In this document: piece after piece, positions 7,670 to 13,614 of the stretch
Layout: the number at the start of each line of letters is the position of its first letter
How positions within the stretch are numbered: the stretch's first letter is position 1
Assembly (NCBI RefSeq): GCF_024600715.1
Contig: NZ_CP102332.1
Coordinates: forward strand, 558,001 to 622,000
Length of the DNA stretch: 64,000 nucleotides
Direction: 5' to 3'
DNA from: Streptomyces changanensis
Lineage (GTDB): Bacteria > Actinomycetota > Actinomycetes > Streptomycetales > Streptomycetaceae
Made by a program: the position numbers and the translations under genes
The notes under the pieces: model-generated
What the model was told of the DNA's origin: nothing
The model's input: only the letters and a program-made list of their open reading frames with translations
The model's database searches: none

Positions 7670-7780
7670 ATGAAGAAGGCGTACGAGGCTCCGACCCTGG
7701 CCCGGCTGGGCAGCTTCCGCAAGACGACGGGGCTCCTGCAGCGCTCCGGCAACGACCGGCTGATCTTCAGCAAGAACTGA
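7670..7780 (+). CDS. Citrulassin-like lasso peptide precursor (A)
   Basis: A 36-residue precursor. The leader carries the lasso signature Y5-x2-P8-x-L10-x3-G14-x5-T20, recognised by the B1 (RRE) protein. With Thr20 at position -2, the predicted core is LLQRSGNDRLIFSKN (15 residues), with a macrolactam between Leu1 and Asp8 and an Arg at position 9. Core length, the GNDRL centre and the SKN end match citrulassin-type lasso peptides, in which Arg9 can be converted to citrulline by an enzyme encoded elsewhere. GGAGGAA lies just upstream of ATG 7670. An alternative core starting at Gly21 with ring closure at its Asp9 is possible but fits the leader spacing less well. Confidence 0.92.
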   Translation: MKKAYEAPTLARLGSFRKTTGLLQRSGNDRLIFSKN

Positions 7781-7798
7781 CGCTCCCGACCTGACGTC

Positions 7799-9655
7799 AT
7801 GACGGAACTGCACGAAAGTGCGGGGACGGGCCACGGCGGCGCGCACTTCGCGGTCTTCACCGACCGCGCGGACGCGGCCGCCGCGGCCCGCTCCTTCCGA
7901 CGCCCCGGGACCCGCGTCCTGGCCCACGCCTCCGGGAGGCCCTGGCTGATCGGCCGGTGGGACGACGACGAACTCGTCACCGCCCGCGCCGGCTCCGCCG
8001 CGCTCGCCCTGGTCGGCACCTGCCCCGTCGACGCCGCCGAGGTGCGCCGGGTCGCCGGCCGCCTGCGCGACCTGGCCGACCTGGACGCCTGGGTACGGTC
8101 CCTGCCCGGCAGCTTCCACCTGGTCGCCGCGCTCGACGGCCGGACCAGGGTGCAGGGCACCGCGTCCGGCCTCCGCCTCGTCCACCACGCCGACCTCGGC
8201 GGGGTGACGGTCGCCGCCACCCGCGCCGACTGGCTCGCCGCCGCCCTGGGCCGCGCGCCCGACCGCGCGCAGCTGGCCGTACGGCTGCTGTGGCCGGTGC
8301 CGCACCCACTGTCCGAGGCCTCCCTCTGGGAGGGGGTCCACGCGGTCCCGCCGGACGAGGCGCTCGTCGTCGCGGCGGACGGGCGCGGGGTGCGCCGCTC
8401 GCGGTGGTGGATGCCCCCGGAGCCGGTCCAGGCCCTGGCGGAGGGGGCCCCGCGGGTACGACAGGCCCTCGCCGAGGCCGTGGACGCCCGCACCCGGGGC
8501 GGCGGCGTCGTCAGCTGCGACCTGTCGGGCGGGCTGGACTCCACCTCCGTCTGCTTCCTCGCCGACCGGTCACCGGCCCGTGTGGTGGCGAGCACCTGGC
8601 CGGGCCGCGACCCTGCCGACACCGACCTGGAGTGGGCCCGCCGGGCCGCCCGCGCCCTGCCCGACGTGGAGCACGTCGTGTGGGACGCCGACGCCTCGCC
8701 ACTCGTCTACGACGACCTGCTCGGCATCGACGATCTCCTGGACGAGCCGACGATCGGGGTCATGGACCGGTCGCGCGTCCTGCACCACCTGCCCGGCATG
8801 GCGCGCCGGGGCAGCCGCATCCACCTGACGGGCATCGGCGGGGACCACGTCGCCTGGTGCTCGGAGGCGTACTATCACCGGCTCGCCCGGACACGGCCGT
8901 TGTTCGCCCTGCGGCAGCTGCGCGGCTTCCGCGCCCTGTGGCAGTGGCCGCTCGGCGGGACACTGCGGGCGCTGGCCGACAACCGGCCGTACGGCAGGTG
9001 GCTCCGCGACTGCACGGTCGACCTGCGCGGGGCGCGGCCCGCCACCGTCACCACCAGCCTCGGCTGGGGCATGCCTCCCCGCCTGTTCGACTGGGTCACG
9101 TCGGACGCCGCGGAGCTGGCGGGGCGGGCACTGCGCGACGCGGCCGCCGGGGCCCGGCCCCTGCACCCGGACCGCGGTCTCCACACCGACCTGGAGCAGA
9201 TCCGCGGCTGCACCCGCATCATCCGCCAGTGGGACCACATGGCCGCCCGGACGGGGCTGCCCATGGCGTCCCCCTTCCTGGACGACCGGGTCATCGAGGC
9301 CTGCCTCGCGGTGCGCCCCGCCGAGCGGGTCTCCCCGTGGCGGTACAAGCCCCTGCTCACCGCGGCGATGCGCGGGATCGTGCCGGAGGAGTGCCTGCGG
9401 CGCACCGACAAGGCCGCCGCCTCCATGGACGCGGCGGACGGGCTGCGGGAGCACCGCGCCGACCTCATGGCCCTGTGGGAGGACTCCCGGCTGGAGCGGC
9501 TGGGGCTCGTCGACGGCGTGGCCCTGCGCCGTCTCGCCCAGCGTCCCTCCACGCCGGAGCTGCACGACGGGGTCCTCTACCCGACCATCGCGGCGGAGGT
9601 GTGGCTCCGCGGCCTCGAACCGGCCCGCGACGGCACGGCCCCCGCCCGCCCCTGA
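7799..9655 (+). CDS. Lasso cyclase (C), asparagine-synthetase homologue
   Basis: A 618-residue ATP-dependent macrolactam synthetase that adenylates the core Asp side chain and joins it to the core N-terminus. The N-terminal half resembles class II glutamine amidotransferase but lacks the catalytic Cys at position 2, as expected for lasso cyclases. The PP-loop SGGLDS lies at about residues 243-248. Later conserved parts include GIGGDHVAW and ASPFLDDRVIEACL. It starts 19 bases after the precursor stop with no strong ribosome site, so it is probably translated with the precursor as one operon. Length fits the family (about 600). Confidence 0.93.
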   Translation: MTELHESAGTGHGGAHFAVFTDRADAAAAARSFRRPGTRVLAHASGRPWLIGRWDDDELVTARAGSAALALVGTCPVDAAEVRRVAGRLRDLADLDAWVRSLPGSFHLVAALDGRTRVQGTASGLRLVHHADLGGVTVAATRADWLAAALGRAPDRAQLAVRLLWPVPHPLSEASLWEGVHAVPPDEALVVAADGRGVRRSRWWMPPEPVQALAEGAPRVRQALAEAVDARTRGGGVVSCDLSGGLDSTSVCFLADRSPARVVASTWPGRDPADTDLEWARRAARALPDVEHVVWDADASPLVYDDLLGIDDLLDEPTIGVMDRSRVLHHLPGMARRGSRIHLTGIGGDHVAWCSEAYYHRLARTRPLFALRQLRGFRALWQWPLGGTLRALADNRPYGRWLRDCTVDLRGARPATVTTSLGWGMPPRLFDWVTSDAAELAGRALRDAAAGARPLHPDRGLHTDLEQIRGCTRIIRQWDHMAARTGLPMASPFLDDRVIEACLAVRPAERVSPWRYKPLLTAAMRGIVPEECLRRTDKAAASMDAADGLREHRADLMALWEDSRLERLGLVDGVALRRLAQRPSTPELHDGVLYPTIAAEVWLRGLEPARDGTAPARP

Positions 9656-9805
9656 CCCCTTCCCACCCCCGGCCGGCTCTCCCCCGGCCGGCTCCCCCCG
9701 CATCTCCCCCTCCGATCGGCCCCGCCGGCCCAGCCCGCCCCGGCCACCCCCGGCGCCCGGCCCTTCCGGCGCCGCCCGGCGCCCACCACCAGAAAGGACC
9801 CTCGC

Positions 9806-10060
9806 ATGGCACTGCGGTTCTCGGCGGACGTGTCCACCGCGAAGACGGACTACGGCACCGTCCTCCTGGACGAACGCGGCGGTGAGTACTGGGAGCTGAA
9901 CCCGAGCGCGACCCTGGTGGTCGGCGTCCTGATGTCGGGTGGTGACGAGGACGCCGCCGCGGCGGCGCTGGTCGCGGAGTTCGACGTCGATCCGCAGGGC
10001 GCCGCGCGGGACGTCGCGGCCCTCGTCGGGGAGCTGCGGGCCGCGGGGCTGGCCGCATGA
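9806..10060 (+). CDS. Lasso RiPP recognition element (B1, PqqD-like)
   Basis: An 84-residue PqqD-like protein that binds the precursor leader and presents it to the peptidase. It shows the expected layout: DYGTVLLDERGGEYWELNPSA beta-hairpins, then two or three helices ending VGELRAAGLAA. ATG 9806 is preceded by AAAGGACC. It overlaps the B2 gene by ATGA, implying coupling. The 150-base gap behind the cyclase is Pro/Gly-codon-like low complexity with repeated CCGGCCGGCTC and no gene. Confidence 0.9.
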   Translation: MALRFSADVSTAKTDYGTVLLDERGGEYWELNPSATLVVGVLMSGGDEDAAAAALVAEFDVDPQGAARDVAALVGELRAAGLAA

Positions 10061-10494
10061 CGACACCGTCCGCGCTCGAACGGCCCGAGGGCGTACCGTT
10101 CGCCCGGCGGTGCGCCGCCCGGCTGGTGCTGCTGCCCGCCCTCGCCCTCTCCCTCCTGCCGCCCCGCCGGATCCGCGGCGTCCTCGACCTGTTGCGGCGG
10201 GGCGCCGCGCCGGCGAGCGCGGCGCAGGCGGCGGACGCCCGTGACGCGGTGTGCGCGGTGAGCCTGCGCTGCGCCGGCCCCAAGGGCTGCCTGCCGCGGT
10301 CCCTCGGCGCGGCGCTGCTCTGCCGGCTCGGCGGCACGTGGCCCACGTGGTGCACCGGTGTGCGCGTCGTCCCCCCGTTCACGGCCCACGCCTGGGTCGA
10401 GGCGGAGGGGCGTCCCGTGGGCGAGGACGCGCCGGACGACTACTTCACGCGTCTGATGGCGATCGGTCCCGCCCCCCGGCCGCCCCGCCGGTGA
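10057..10494 (+). CDS. Lasso leader peptidase (B2, transglutaminase-like)
   Basis: A 145-residue cysteine protease of the lasso B2 family, which removes the leader before cyclisation. The catalytic Cys is in GPKGCLPRSLG and the His in TAHAWVEAEG; an acidic partner follows. Length (about 145) is normal. The start ATG overlaps the B1 stop, and its own TGA (10492-10494) overlaps a GTG at 10491 that begins the exporter. All three core biosynthetic proteins look intact, unlike the exporter. Confidence 0.92.
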   Translation: MTTPSALERPEGVPFARRCAARLVLLPALALSLLPPRRIRGVLDLLRRGAAPASAAQAADARDAVCAVSLRCAGPKGCLPRSLGAALLCRLGGTWPTWCTGVRVVPPFTAHAWVEAEGRPVGEDAPDDYFTRLMAIGPAPRPPRR

Positions 10495-11999
10495 GCGCCG
10501 CGCACGGCCCCGCGACCCCGACGGCACCACAGGGGCGACGGCGACGGCCGCGGGGGCGACGTCCACGTGGACGTCCATCGCCACCCTGTACGGCCTCACG
10601 GTCGGGCACCGCCGCGCCATCGCCCTGGCTGTCGTCCTCAGCCTCGCGGCGGCGGCCCTCGGACTCACCCAGCCGCTGCTCGCCCGGGAGGCCGTCGAAC
10701 GGGGTGCCGGGGGGCGGGCGTTCGGGTCGGTCCTGCTGCTCCTGGCCGCCGTGTTCGCCGCGGAGGCCTCGACGGGCGCCGTCGGCCGCTACCTCCTGGA
10801 GCGCACGGGCGAGGGCGTGGTCCGCCGGCTGCGCCACGGGCTGGTCGACCGGTTCCTGCGGCTGGAGGTGCGCGAGTACCACCGGCACCGCGCCGGTGAC
10901 CTGACCTCCCGCGTCACCGCCGACACGACCGTCCTGCGCGAGGTCGTCTCGCAGGCGCTCGTCGACCTGGTCACGGGGGCACTGGTCGCGGCCGGGGCCA
11001 TCGCGCTCATGGCGTGGCTCGACCCGCTGCTGCTCCTCGTGGCGTTGACGGTGGTGGTGGCCTCGATGCTGGTCGCCTCGATGCTGAAGGGGATCCGCGC
11101 GGCGTCGGCGCACACACAGGACTCGGTCGGCGCGGTCGCCGCGGAACTGGAACGGGCCCTGGGTGCCCTGCCCCTGGTGCGGGTGCACCGTGCCGAGGAG
11201 CGCGAGGCGGCCGCCATCGGGACTCCAGCGCGGTGCCGGCGCCCACGCGCGGGTACGGCAGGCCCTGGGCCTGCCGGCGGAGCCACCGGACCCCCCCGCC
11301 CAGGTCCTCGACGCCGCCCCTGCCCCCGCCACGGCCACGGCGGCCACTCACGGTCCCGGTGCCACGCCCGCCACGGCGTCCGCCGCCCCCCGCGTCCCCG
11401 CCTCCGCCCGGCGGGCGGACGCTACCGGTGCGGCGGCACCCGTACTCGCCCTGCACGACGTGCACTTCGCGTACACGTCGGGCCGGCCCGTCCTGCGCGG
11501 GGTGTCGCTGACGGTGCCGTCCCGGCGCCAGGTGGCCCTGGTCGGTACCTCGGGTGCGGGCAAGAGCACCCTGTTCGCCCTGGTGGCGCGGTTCTATGAG
11601 CCGGACGCGGGGACCCTGTCGTTCGACGGTGTGCCCGCGGCGGAGCTGGGCCGATCCGACTGCCGCGCGCGCATCGCGGTCGTCGACCAGAACACCCGCG
11701 TGGTCCACGGCACCCTGTGGGACAACATCACGTACGGCGCCCCCGACGCCGGCGAGGCCGAGGTCCGCCGCGTCGTCGACCTGGCCCGGCTCGGTGCCGT
11801 CGTCGAGCGGCTCCCCGGCGGTCTGCGCGGAGCGGTCGGCGAGCGCGGCGCGACCCTGTCGGGGGGCGAGCGCCAACGCGTCGCCCTCGCGCGGGCGCTG
11901 CTCACGCGCCCCTCCTGCTCTTGCCGCGCAGGTGCTCCGACCGGCGGTGGTGGCGGGCGCCTCCCTCGGTACCCCCACCGGCCGGGGCGGAACAGGCGA
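10491..11999 (+). pseudogene. Broken lasso ABC exporter (D): two frame changes, internal deletion, lost 3' end
   Basis: Translation needs three segments. The GTG at 10491 reads VSAAHGPATPTAPQ, then the frame must shift near the G run at 10532-10535. The second segment (to about 11220) holds the first membrane helices, from SIATLYGLTVGHRRAIALAVV to ALPLVRVHRAEEREAAAIG. There it jumps to the other frame at LQRGAGAHARVRQALGLP, so the remaining membrane helices (roughly 100-130 residues by family comparison) are missing. The ATPase follows with Walker A GTSGAGKST, the Q-loop VDQNTR and signature LSGGERQRVALARALL, but ends after LLTRP with no Walker B in any frame. Real decay or assembly error are both possible; three independent lesions favour decay. 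Confidence 0.8.
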
Positions 12000-12168: not shown

Positions 12169-13614
12169 GTGACTGTCAATGAGGACTCGTTCACCAGCTG
12201 GAAGAACCGCGAGGAGATCGCGGAGTCGATGATCCCGATCATCGGGAAGCTGCACAGGGAGCGGGACGTCACGGTCCTGCTCCACAGCCGCTCCCTGGTG
12301 AACAAGTCGGTGGTCAGCATCCTCAAGACCCACCGGTTCGCCCGGCAGATCGCCGGTGAGGAGCTCTCGGTCACCGAGACGATGCCCTTCCTGCGGGCCC
12401 TCACCACGCTCGACCTCGGCCCGTCCCAGATCGACATCGGCATGCTCGCGGCGACCTACCGGACCGACGACCGCGGCCTGTCCGTCGAGGAGTTCACCGC
12501 CGAGGCCGTGGCCGGCGCGACCGGCGCCGACAAGATCGAGCGCAGCGAGCCCCGCGACGTGGTCCTCTACGGCTTCGGCCGCATCGGCCGCCTCGTCGCG
12601 CGCCTCCTCATCGAGAAGGCCGGCTCCGGCAACGGCCTGCGCCTGCGCGCCATCGTGGTCCGCCGGGGCGGCGAGCAGGACATCGTCAAGCGCGCCTCGC
12701 TGCTGCGGCGCGACTCGATCCACGGCCAGTTCCAGGGCACGATCACCGTCGACGAGGCGAACAGCACGATCGTCGCCAACGGCAACGCCATCAAGGTGAT
12801 CTACGCGGGCGACCCGTCGGAGATCGACTACACGGCGTACGGCATCAAGAACGCCATCCTCATCGACAACACCGGCAAGTGGCGCGACCGCGAGGGCCTG
12901 TCGCAGCACCTGCGACCCGGCATCGACAAGGTCGTCCTGACCGCCCCGGGCAAGGGCGACGTCCCGAACATCGTCCACGGCGTCAACCACGACACCATCA
13001 AGCCGGACGAGCAGGTCCTGTCCTGCGCCTCCTGCACCACCAACGCGATCGTCCCGCCGCTCAAGGCGATGGCGGACGAGTACGGCGTCCTGCGCGGGCA
13101 CGTGGAGACCGTCCACTCGTTCACCAACGACCAGAACCTGCTGGACAACTACCACAAGGCGGACCGCCGGGGCCGCTCCGCGCCGCTCAACATGGTCATC
13201 ACCGAGACCGGCGCCGCCTCCGCCGTCGCCAAGGCGCTGCCGGAGCTGAAGGCGCCGATCACCGGCAGCTCCATCCGCGTCCCGGTGCCGGACGTGTCGA
13301 TCGCCATCCTCAGCCTCCGGCTGGGCCGCGAGACCACCCGCGAGGAGGTCCTCGACTACCTCCGCAACGTCTCGCTGACGTCGCCGCTGAAGCGTCAGAT
13401 CGACTTCACCACCGCCCCCGACGCGGTGTCGAGCGACTTCATCGGATCGCGCCACGCCTCGATCGTCGACGCCGGCGCCACCAAGGTCGACGGCGACAAC
13501 GCCATCCTCTACCTGTGGTACGACAACGAGTTCGGCTACTCGTGCCAGGTGATCCGCGTCGTGCAGCACGTCTCCGGGGTGGAGTACCCGACGTACCCGG
13601 CGCCCGCAGTCTGA
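12169..13614 (+). CDS. gap: Glyceraldehyde-3-phosphate dehydrogenase, long actinobacterial form
   Basis: A 481-residue GAPDH, cytosolic, converting glyceraldehyde-3-phosphate, NAD(P)+ and phosphate to 1,3-bisphosphoglycerate or the reverse. The catalytic region is clear: GFGRIGR nucleotide motif near residue 130, then SCASCTTNAIVPPLKAM with the active-site Cys, and WYDNEFGYSCQV near the end. It is longer than standard GAPDH (about 335) by an N-terminal extension of about 125 residues (NREEIAESMIPIIGKLHRERDVTVLL...), a form found in a second gap gene of several actinomycetes. Start: GTG 12169. It stands alone after the broken lasso exporter. Confidence 0.95.
   Translation: MTVNEDSFTSWKNREEIAESMIPIIGKLHRERDVTVLLHSRSLVNKSVVSILKTHRFARQIAGEELSVTETMPFLRALTTLDLGPSQIDIGMLAATYRTDDRGLSVEEFTAEAVAGATGADKIERSEPRDVVLYGFGRIGRLVARLLIEKAGSGNGLRLRAIVVRRGGEQDIVKRASLLRRDSIHGQFQGTITVDEANSTIVANGNAIKVIYAGDPSEIDYTAYGIKNAILIDNTGKWRDREGLSQHLRPGIDKVVLTAPGKGDVPNIVHGVNHDTIKPDEQVLSCASCTTNAIVPPLKAMADEYGVLRGHVETVHSFTNDQNLLDNYHKADRRGRSAPLNMVITETGAASAVAKALPELKAPITGSSIRVPVPDVSIAILSLRLGRETTREEVLDYLRNVSLTSPLKRQIDFTTAPDAVSSDFIGSRHASIVDAGATKVDGDNAILYLWYDNEFGYSCQVIRVVQHVSGVEYPTYPAPAV

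Follow-up and report, generated by a model that had tools for sequence, protein, structure and literature searches.

The locus examined here lies in a stretch of 64,000 nucleotides of the Streptomyces changanensis genome (contig NZ_CP102332.1, positions 558,001 to 622,000; hereafter the window) and encodes a lasso peptide of the citrulassin type, next to a broken exporter gene and far from the one peptidylarginine deiminase (PAD) gene found in the genome. The question it raises is whether the mature peptide is made and its Arg9 converted to citrulline, and, if so, where. We consider it quite likely that the cluster supports citrulassin maturation, followed by a probable citrullination of Arg9 outside the cytoplasm by a remotely encoded PAD, and that the peptide, if it leaves the cell, does so by a route other than its own exporter.

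The cluster and its core peptide

The window locus is an ordinary citrulassin-type lasso peptide cluster, in which the genes for the precursor, the cyclase, the recognition element and the peptidase are all intact and follow one another in this order on the forward (+) strand. The precursor gene (7670-7780) encodes 36 residues, MKKAYEAPTLARLGSFRKTTG|LLQRSGNDRLIFSKN, which consist of a 21 aa leader (7670..7732) with a YEAP motif and a Thr as the penultimate residue, and the core peptide LLQRSGNDRLIFSKN followed by the stop codon (7733..7780), in which a Leu1-Asp8 ring is expected and Arg9 is the citrulline site. The precursor matched Pfam DUF5972 (4.9e-18) and scored above the cut-off of the NCBIfam lasso leader model. 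The cyclase (C protein, asparagine-synthetase-like; 7799..9655), whose SGGLDS motif was seen in the DNA, matched Pfam Asn_synthase (1.6e-51); it scored below the curated NCBIfam cyclase cut-offs (best model 247.9 of 300 bits), and its assignment thus rests on the Pfam match and on its relatives. The recognition element (E/B1 protein, PqqD-like; 9806..10060; NF033530, 3.8e-31) and the leader peptidase (B/B2 protein, transglutaminase-like; 10057..10494; NF033537, 8.2e-35) are separate genes, as in citrulassin clusters, and the latter is the sole lasso B2 match in the genome, which comprises 6.9 Mb in two contigs. The preliminary description had reported these four genes as intact and in the usual order, and its coordinates proved exact: all four are open frames with matches to lasso or parent families. 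Judged by its sequence, the cluster is a citrulassin biosynthetic cluster and belongs to a known kind of system. In the maturation expected of it, the leader would be bound by the recognition element, the B2 peptidase would cleave after TG, a site that we infer from the family pattern of relatives, and the cyclase would link Leu1 to the Asp8 side chain around the tail to give a 15-residue threaded lasso.

A cyclase scan of the named genomes gave 109 confirmed relatives, of which the best 80 were kept. These belong to Streptomyces (79) and Actinocorallia (1) and are 66-94% identical to the window cyclase. A citrulassin-type precursor was present upstream of the cyclase in 80/80, which excludes chance. 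Among the best 80 of the 109 relatives we found 49 distinct cores, in which Leu2, Gly6, Asp8, Arg9, Ser13, Lys14 and Asn15 are invariant. The citrulassin pattern recognized in the preliminary description, with Asp8, Arg9 and the SKN end, is therefore borne out. Arg4 and Phe12, which it had taken as distinguishing, are not: in the same 80 relatives Arg4 is more frequent than any other residue at position 4 (48/80) and Phe12 occurs in 10/80. The closest cyclase found, at 94% identity, is that of Streptomyces sp. DH12 (L062), which has its upstream flank in common with the window (89-95% DNA identity) and of which the contig stops before the exporter. Its core carries Leu12, which suggests that Phe12 probably arose recently in the window lineage.

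The comparison with published citrulassin cores, proposed in the preliminary description, showed that the exact core is already in print. Table 1 of PMC12971885, in the part of that paper available to us, gives LLQRSGNDRLIFSKN as a prediction for Streptomyces sp. NAK5540 with a PAD marked as present; the likeness to NAK5540 concerns the printed core and this flag alone. The identical core was also found in a second public genome, that of Streptomyces sp. AC550_RSS872 (L104). That the core might be new was thus ruled out by both. Citrulassin N, described in the available part of PMC12971885, belongs to the same family and has Cit9 and an 8-residue ring as established by NMR and MS/MS, while its core, LLQSSGNDRLILSKN, has Ser4 and Leu12. 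The citrulassin A strain, NRRL B-3066 (L128), is entered as S. noursei in its record and called S. albulus in papers. Its cluster resembles that of the window in the order precursor, cyclase, RRE, B2, in its 15-residue core with Asp8-Arg9 and the SKN end, and in a remote PAD of ~80% identity. The B-3066 core, LLGLAGNDRLVLSKN, has other residues at positions 3, 4, 5, 11 and 12, and no exporter remnant was found within ~8 kb, whereas the window keeps a broken exporter.

Several relatives showed features of their own. Two citrulassin clusters with different cores occur in one genome in Streptomyces sp. CB03234 (L075, L141) and likewise in S. ficellus (L063, L085). A citrulassin-type cluster with 66% cyclase identity and the core LLGKNGNDRLILSKN is present outside Streptomyces, in Actinocorallia populi (L139:8001-9788), of which the PAD match is distant only (3.0e-65). 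In Streptomyces sp. NRRL B-1140 (L120, upstream of 8001), Arg7 (GRDRL) results in two Arg residues flanking the ring Asp; cores of the GRDRL type are also found in Table 1 of PMC12971885, in its available part.

The broken exporter

The preliminary description ended at the peptidase and so omitted the fifth usual gene, an ABC exporter that follows just 3'. In the window this gene beside B2 is present as a pseudogene only, with its 5' membrane part at 10500..11221 (5' limit approximate) and its 3' part in a different frame at 11222..11970 (3' limit approximate), both on the + strand. It carries three lesions. The frame of the membrane part has no ATG, GTG or TTG before 10751 and none at the usual start, where a start codon stands in 70/71 exporter alignments tested, the exception being the window itself; the public gene call of the fragment (P0002) starts from a CTG further 3' than the usual start. 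At 11221, ~70-76 codons are lost and the frame changes. Finally, the exporter sequence ends near 11970, after the signature motif, with the Walker B region lost. The broken end abuts the next downstream gene, gap (glyceraldehyde-3-phosphate dehydrogenase; 12169..13614, +). In both relatives in which its position was checked, gap and the cluster lie on separate contigs, so that a rearrangement is likely.

The 586-residue exporter of L063 served as the reference for the relatives. Among the best 80 of the 109, 77 had enough DNA, and 69/77 showed an exporter match 3' of the cyclase. The match spans >500 residues in one frame in 68/69, two of these 68 having one internal stop, and runs into the contig end in the remaining one. 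At the first threshold, the linked exporter was absent or fragmentary in 8/77, including B-3066 and L110, in which a 36-residue fragment remains. The relocation of the exporter in these strains was considered and rejected: no copy of >46% identity was found in the seven genomes searched (E <= 1e-90), and the eighth relative, L085, has its genome in common with L063, whose cluster has an exporter. Since the eight include B-3066, the strain of citrulassin A, the linked exporter is usual for citrulassins while being neither universal nor defining, and it is dispensable in some strains.

Elsewhere in the window genome, no full-length exporter relative of >46% identity was found; the best one (C1:1689849-1691561, its flanking ORFs viewed by eye) is 46% identical. 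A second lasso cluster that could lend its exporter was sought and not found in this genome, which has a single B2 match. When proteins were searched with the exporter fragment, with 8000 candidates scored, a related exporter protein from Streptomyces stramineus (P0007) seemed to go out of frame beyond the linker, perhaps as another decaying copy or by a sequencing error.

A remote deiminase

As the preliminary description had noted, the window contains no PAD. The genome search that it proposed detected one PAD, at C1:6539816-6541744 (PF03068, E 6.1e-115), ~5.97 Mb from the cluster on the same contig. Two strains served as controls: the search detected a PAD in B-3066 but not in S. katrae B-16271, in agreement with the published result in the available part of PMC9266682. 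The PAD of the window strain and that of B-3066 (L182) share 79.5% identity over 606 aa, and both fall in one clade of 10 rows in the PAD tree (support 100/99). In the window-strain enzyme, Asp280, His405, Asp407 and Cys628 align with the corresponding residues of human PAD1 and PAD4, and we take their catalytic roles to be those known in human PAD4.

The PAD rows comprised the 30 best of 66 genomes from the genus draw described below and the loci from the named genomes. When 54 distinct PAD rows and pieces were counted with frames chosen without any motif, the residues at the four positions were kept in 51/52, 53/53, 53/53 and 52/52 of the rows with a letter there, respectively. An earlier count of 46/46 was partly so by construction, because its rows were chosen by the G-H/N-V-D-E motif. 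The same motif-based choice of frames underlies the tree and the signal peptide analysis below; L001 (a copy of the strain's own PAD) was left out of these rows, together with six duplicate entries, three short fragments and a further seven loci whose long frame has no G-H/N-V-D-E, four of these seven being distant PADs (~E 1e-65). The genome of L104 (G393), which has the identical core, contains three long PADs, which fall into two of the tree's lineages, and two PAD pieces. Because the PAD of the window strain is ~80% identical to the B-3066 enzyme and keeps the presumed catalytic residues, the predicted product is probably the Cit9 form. The calculated monoisotopic mass of the lasso is 1741.959 Da with Arg9 ([M+2H]2+ 871.987), 1742.943 Da with Cit9 (872.479) and 1743.927 Da were Arg4 converted as well; for citrulassin N, this calculation returns the m/z of 820.9519 given as calculated in PMC12971885.

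To what extent PAD and citrulassin clusters occur together was assessed in the genus draw of 392 genomes, in which a genome was called citrulassin-type when a cyclase match of >=60% identity was listed for it, with precursors unread and up to three candidates scored per genome; the next cyclase group reached at most 49% among the matches listed. By this definition, at least 48 of the 392 genomes have a citrulassin-type cyclase (four partial or broken), and 56 have a PAD at E <= 1e-80, a count that takes in some partial or split genes, e.g. in G128 and G381. Among the matches listed, a PAD was present in 14/48 citrulassin-type genomes versus 42/344 others (Fisher p 0.003, which ignores relatedness). 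Conversely, 34/48 citrulassin-type genomes lack a PAD at this threshold and 42/56 PAD genomes lack a cyclase match of >=60% identity, again among the matches listed. The link between PAD and citrulassin is thus real but loose, and the latter fraction speaks against a dedicated role of the PAD and indicates that the presence of a PAD alone does not equal citrullination. A PAD >=78% identical to that of the window strain was found in 10 genomes, 5 of them with a citrulassin-type cyclase among the matches listed (4/9 when the window genome is subtracted; p 0.015). Any PAD match was found in 23/75 named genomes, these being 75 of the 78 distinct ones (L062, L093 and L127 left out). The review PMC9266682, in its available part, describes the PAD gene as present in all citrulassin producers but one.

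We also considered a PAD clade dedicated to citrulassins. The 10-row clade holds 9/10 citrulassin rows, but its named rows had been chosen for citrulassin and the proportion in the genus draw is 5/10, so that this idea was rejected. On the whole PAD tree, the citrulassin label required 12 changes against a mean of 15.3 after shuffling, and 30/500 shuffles were as low, which indicates that the clustering is weak.

Place of deimination and fate of the peptide

The N-terminus of the window-strain PAD, MGRTVVTSNARRVTLALTAIGAVLAPTTPAFA|APVPP, combines a positively charged segment and a hydrophobic core with A-x-A at its end. By a simple rule combining hydrophobicity and A-x-A, which is not SignalP, a signal-peptide-like N-terminus was present in 53/53 PAD rows (46 distinct), whereas 4/80 control cyclase N-termini were positive. 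The rule covered the motif-chosen Streptomyces PADs and left out the distant ones (~E 1e-65); among the latter, the N-termini of L186 and L200 look hydrophobic too, by eye. As the PAD looks secreted, it would be exported and meet the lasso outside the cytoplasm, and the final deimination of Arg9 to citrulline by this enzyme would probably take place there, on the finished, exported peptide. A search of titles and abstract beginnings, with Harris et al. 2020 outside its scope, found no literature on a signal peptide of these PADs.

This useful by-product of the analysis bears on the timing of citrulassin deimination, which is given as unknown in the available parts of two reviews (PMC8498205, PMC9266682), one of which states the same of whether the precursor or the folded lasso is the substrate. 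A 2026 paper (PMC12971885) proposes, with no test of the order in its available part, that deimination precedes tail threading. From the signal-peptide-like N-termini of 46 distinct Streptomyces PADs it is predicted that the substrate is the finished exported lasso. A more specific proposal, which we put forward tentatively and at somewhat less than even chances, is that citrulline is added extracellularly, after export of the finished lasso, by a secreted and widespread PAD that also has other targets. The PAD gene would then be unlinked to the cluster because the modification is an extracellular encounter rather than a step of the pathway.

The dead exporter complicates any such scheme: the lasso may never reach a secreted PAD. 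Since its own exporter is dead, the peptide would need another transporter, or else it would remain inside the cell unmodified; the lesions may lower the product or trap it. It is accordingly conceivable, though rather unlikely in our estimation, that the strain makes the Arg9 form (des-citrulassin) only, because the peptide is trapped or because the PAD serves another substrate. The absence of a full-length exporter relative of >46% identity elsewhere in the genome, the frequency of PADs in genomes without a citrulassin-type cyclase and the need of leepeptin for its two ABC transporters, without which it was not made (PMC6856326, available part), agree with this explanation. Against it, B-3066 has no linked exporter and no copy of >46% identity elsewhere, yet citrullinated citrulassin A comes from this strain according to the available parts of PMC9266682 and PMC8498205, and chaxapeptin was exported from cells without a dedicated transporter (PMC6856326, available part). 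These two precedents indicate that the dead exporter alone does not rule out a product.

We regard it as improbable that the whole cluster is decaying and silent, with the loss of the exporter as the first step and no peptide made. Three lesions and a broken end abutting gap, where a rearrangement is likely, would suit such decay, as would the citrulassin-type Lp1 of S. leeuwenhoekii, which has its exporter and for which the available part of PMC6856326 reports no detectable product, either natively or in S. coelicolor; the other four genes, however, are intact and in the order of the relatives. It is very improbable that the exporter lesions are assembly errors. In favour of such errors, the identical protein (P0002) is found on two contigs, of which the longer, with 6,817,869 bases, is the window's own and the other may not be independent, and the contig of the nearest relative (L062) ends 68 bases past the cyclase match. 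A deletion of ~70-76 codons together with a lost 3' end does not amount to single-base errors, and when the window is compared with five relatives (L063, L065, L072, L075 and L104), the homology breaks off at 11208-11220 and is found again from 11435-11445. With its broken exporter, the strain is a natural test of the need for a linked exporter.
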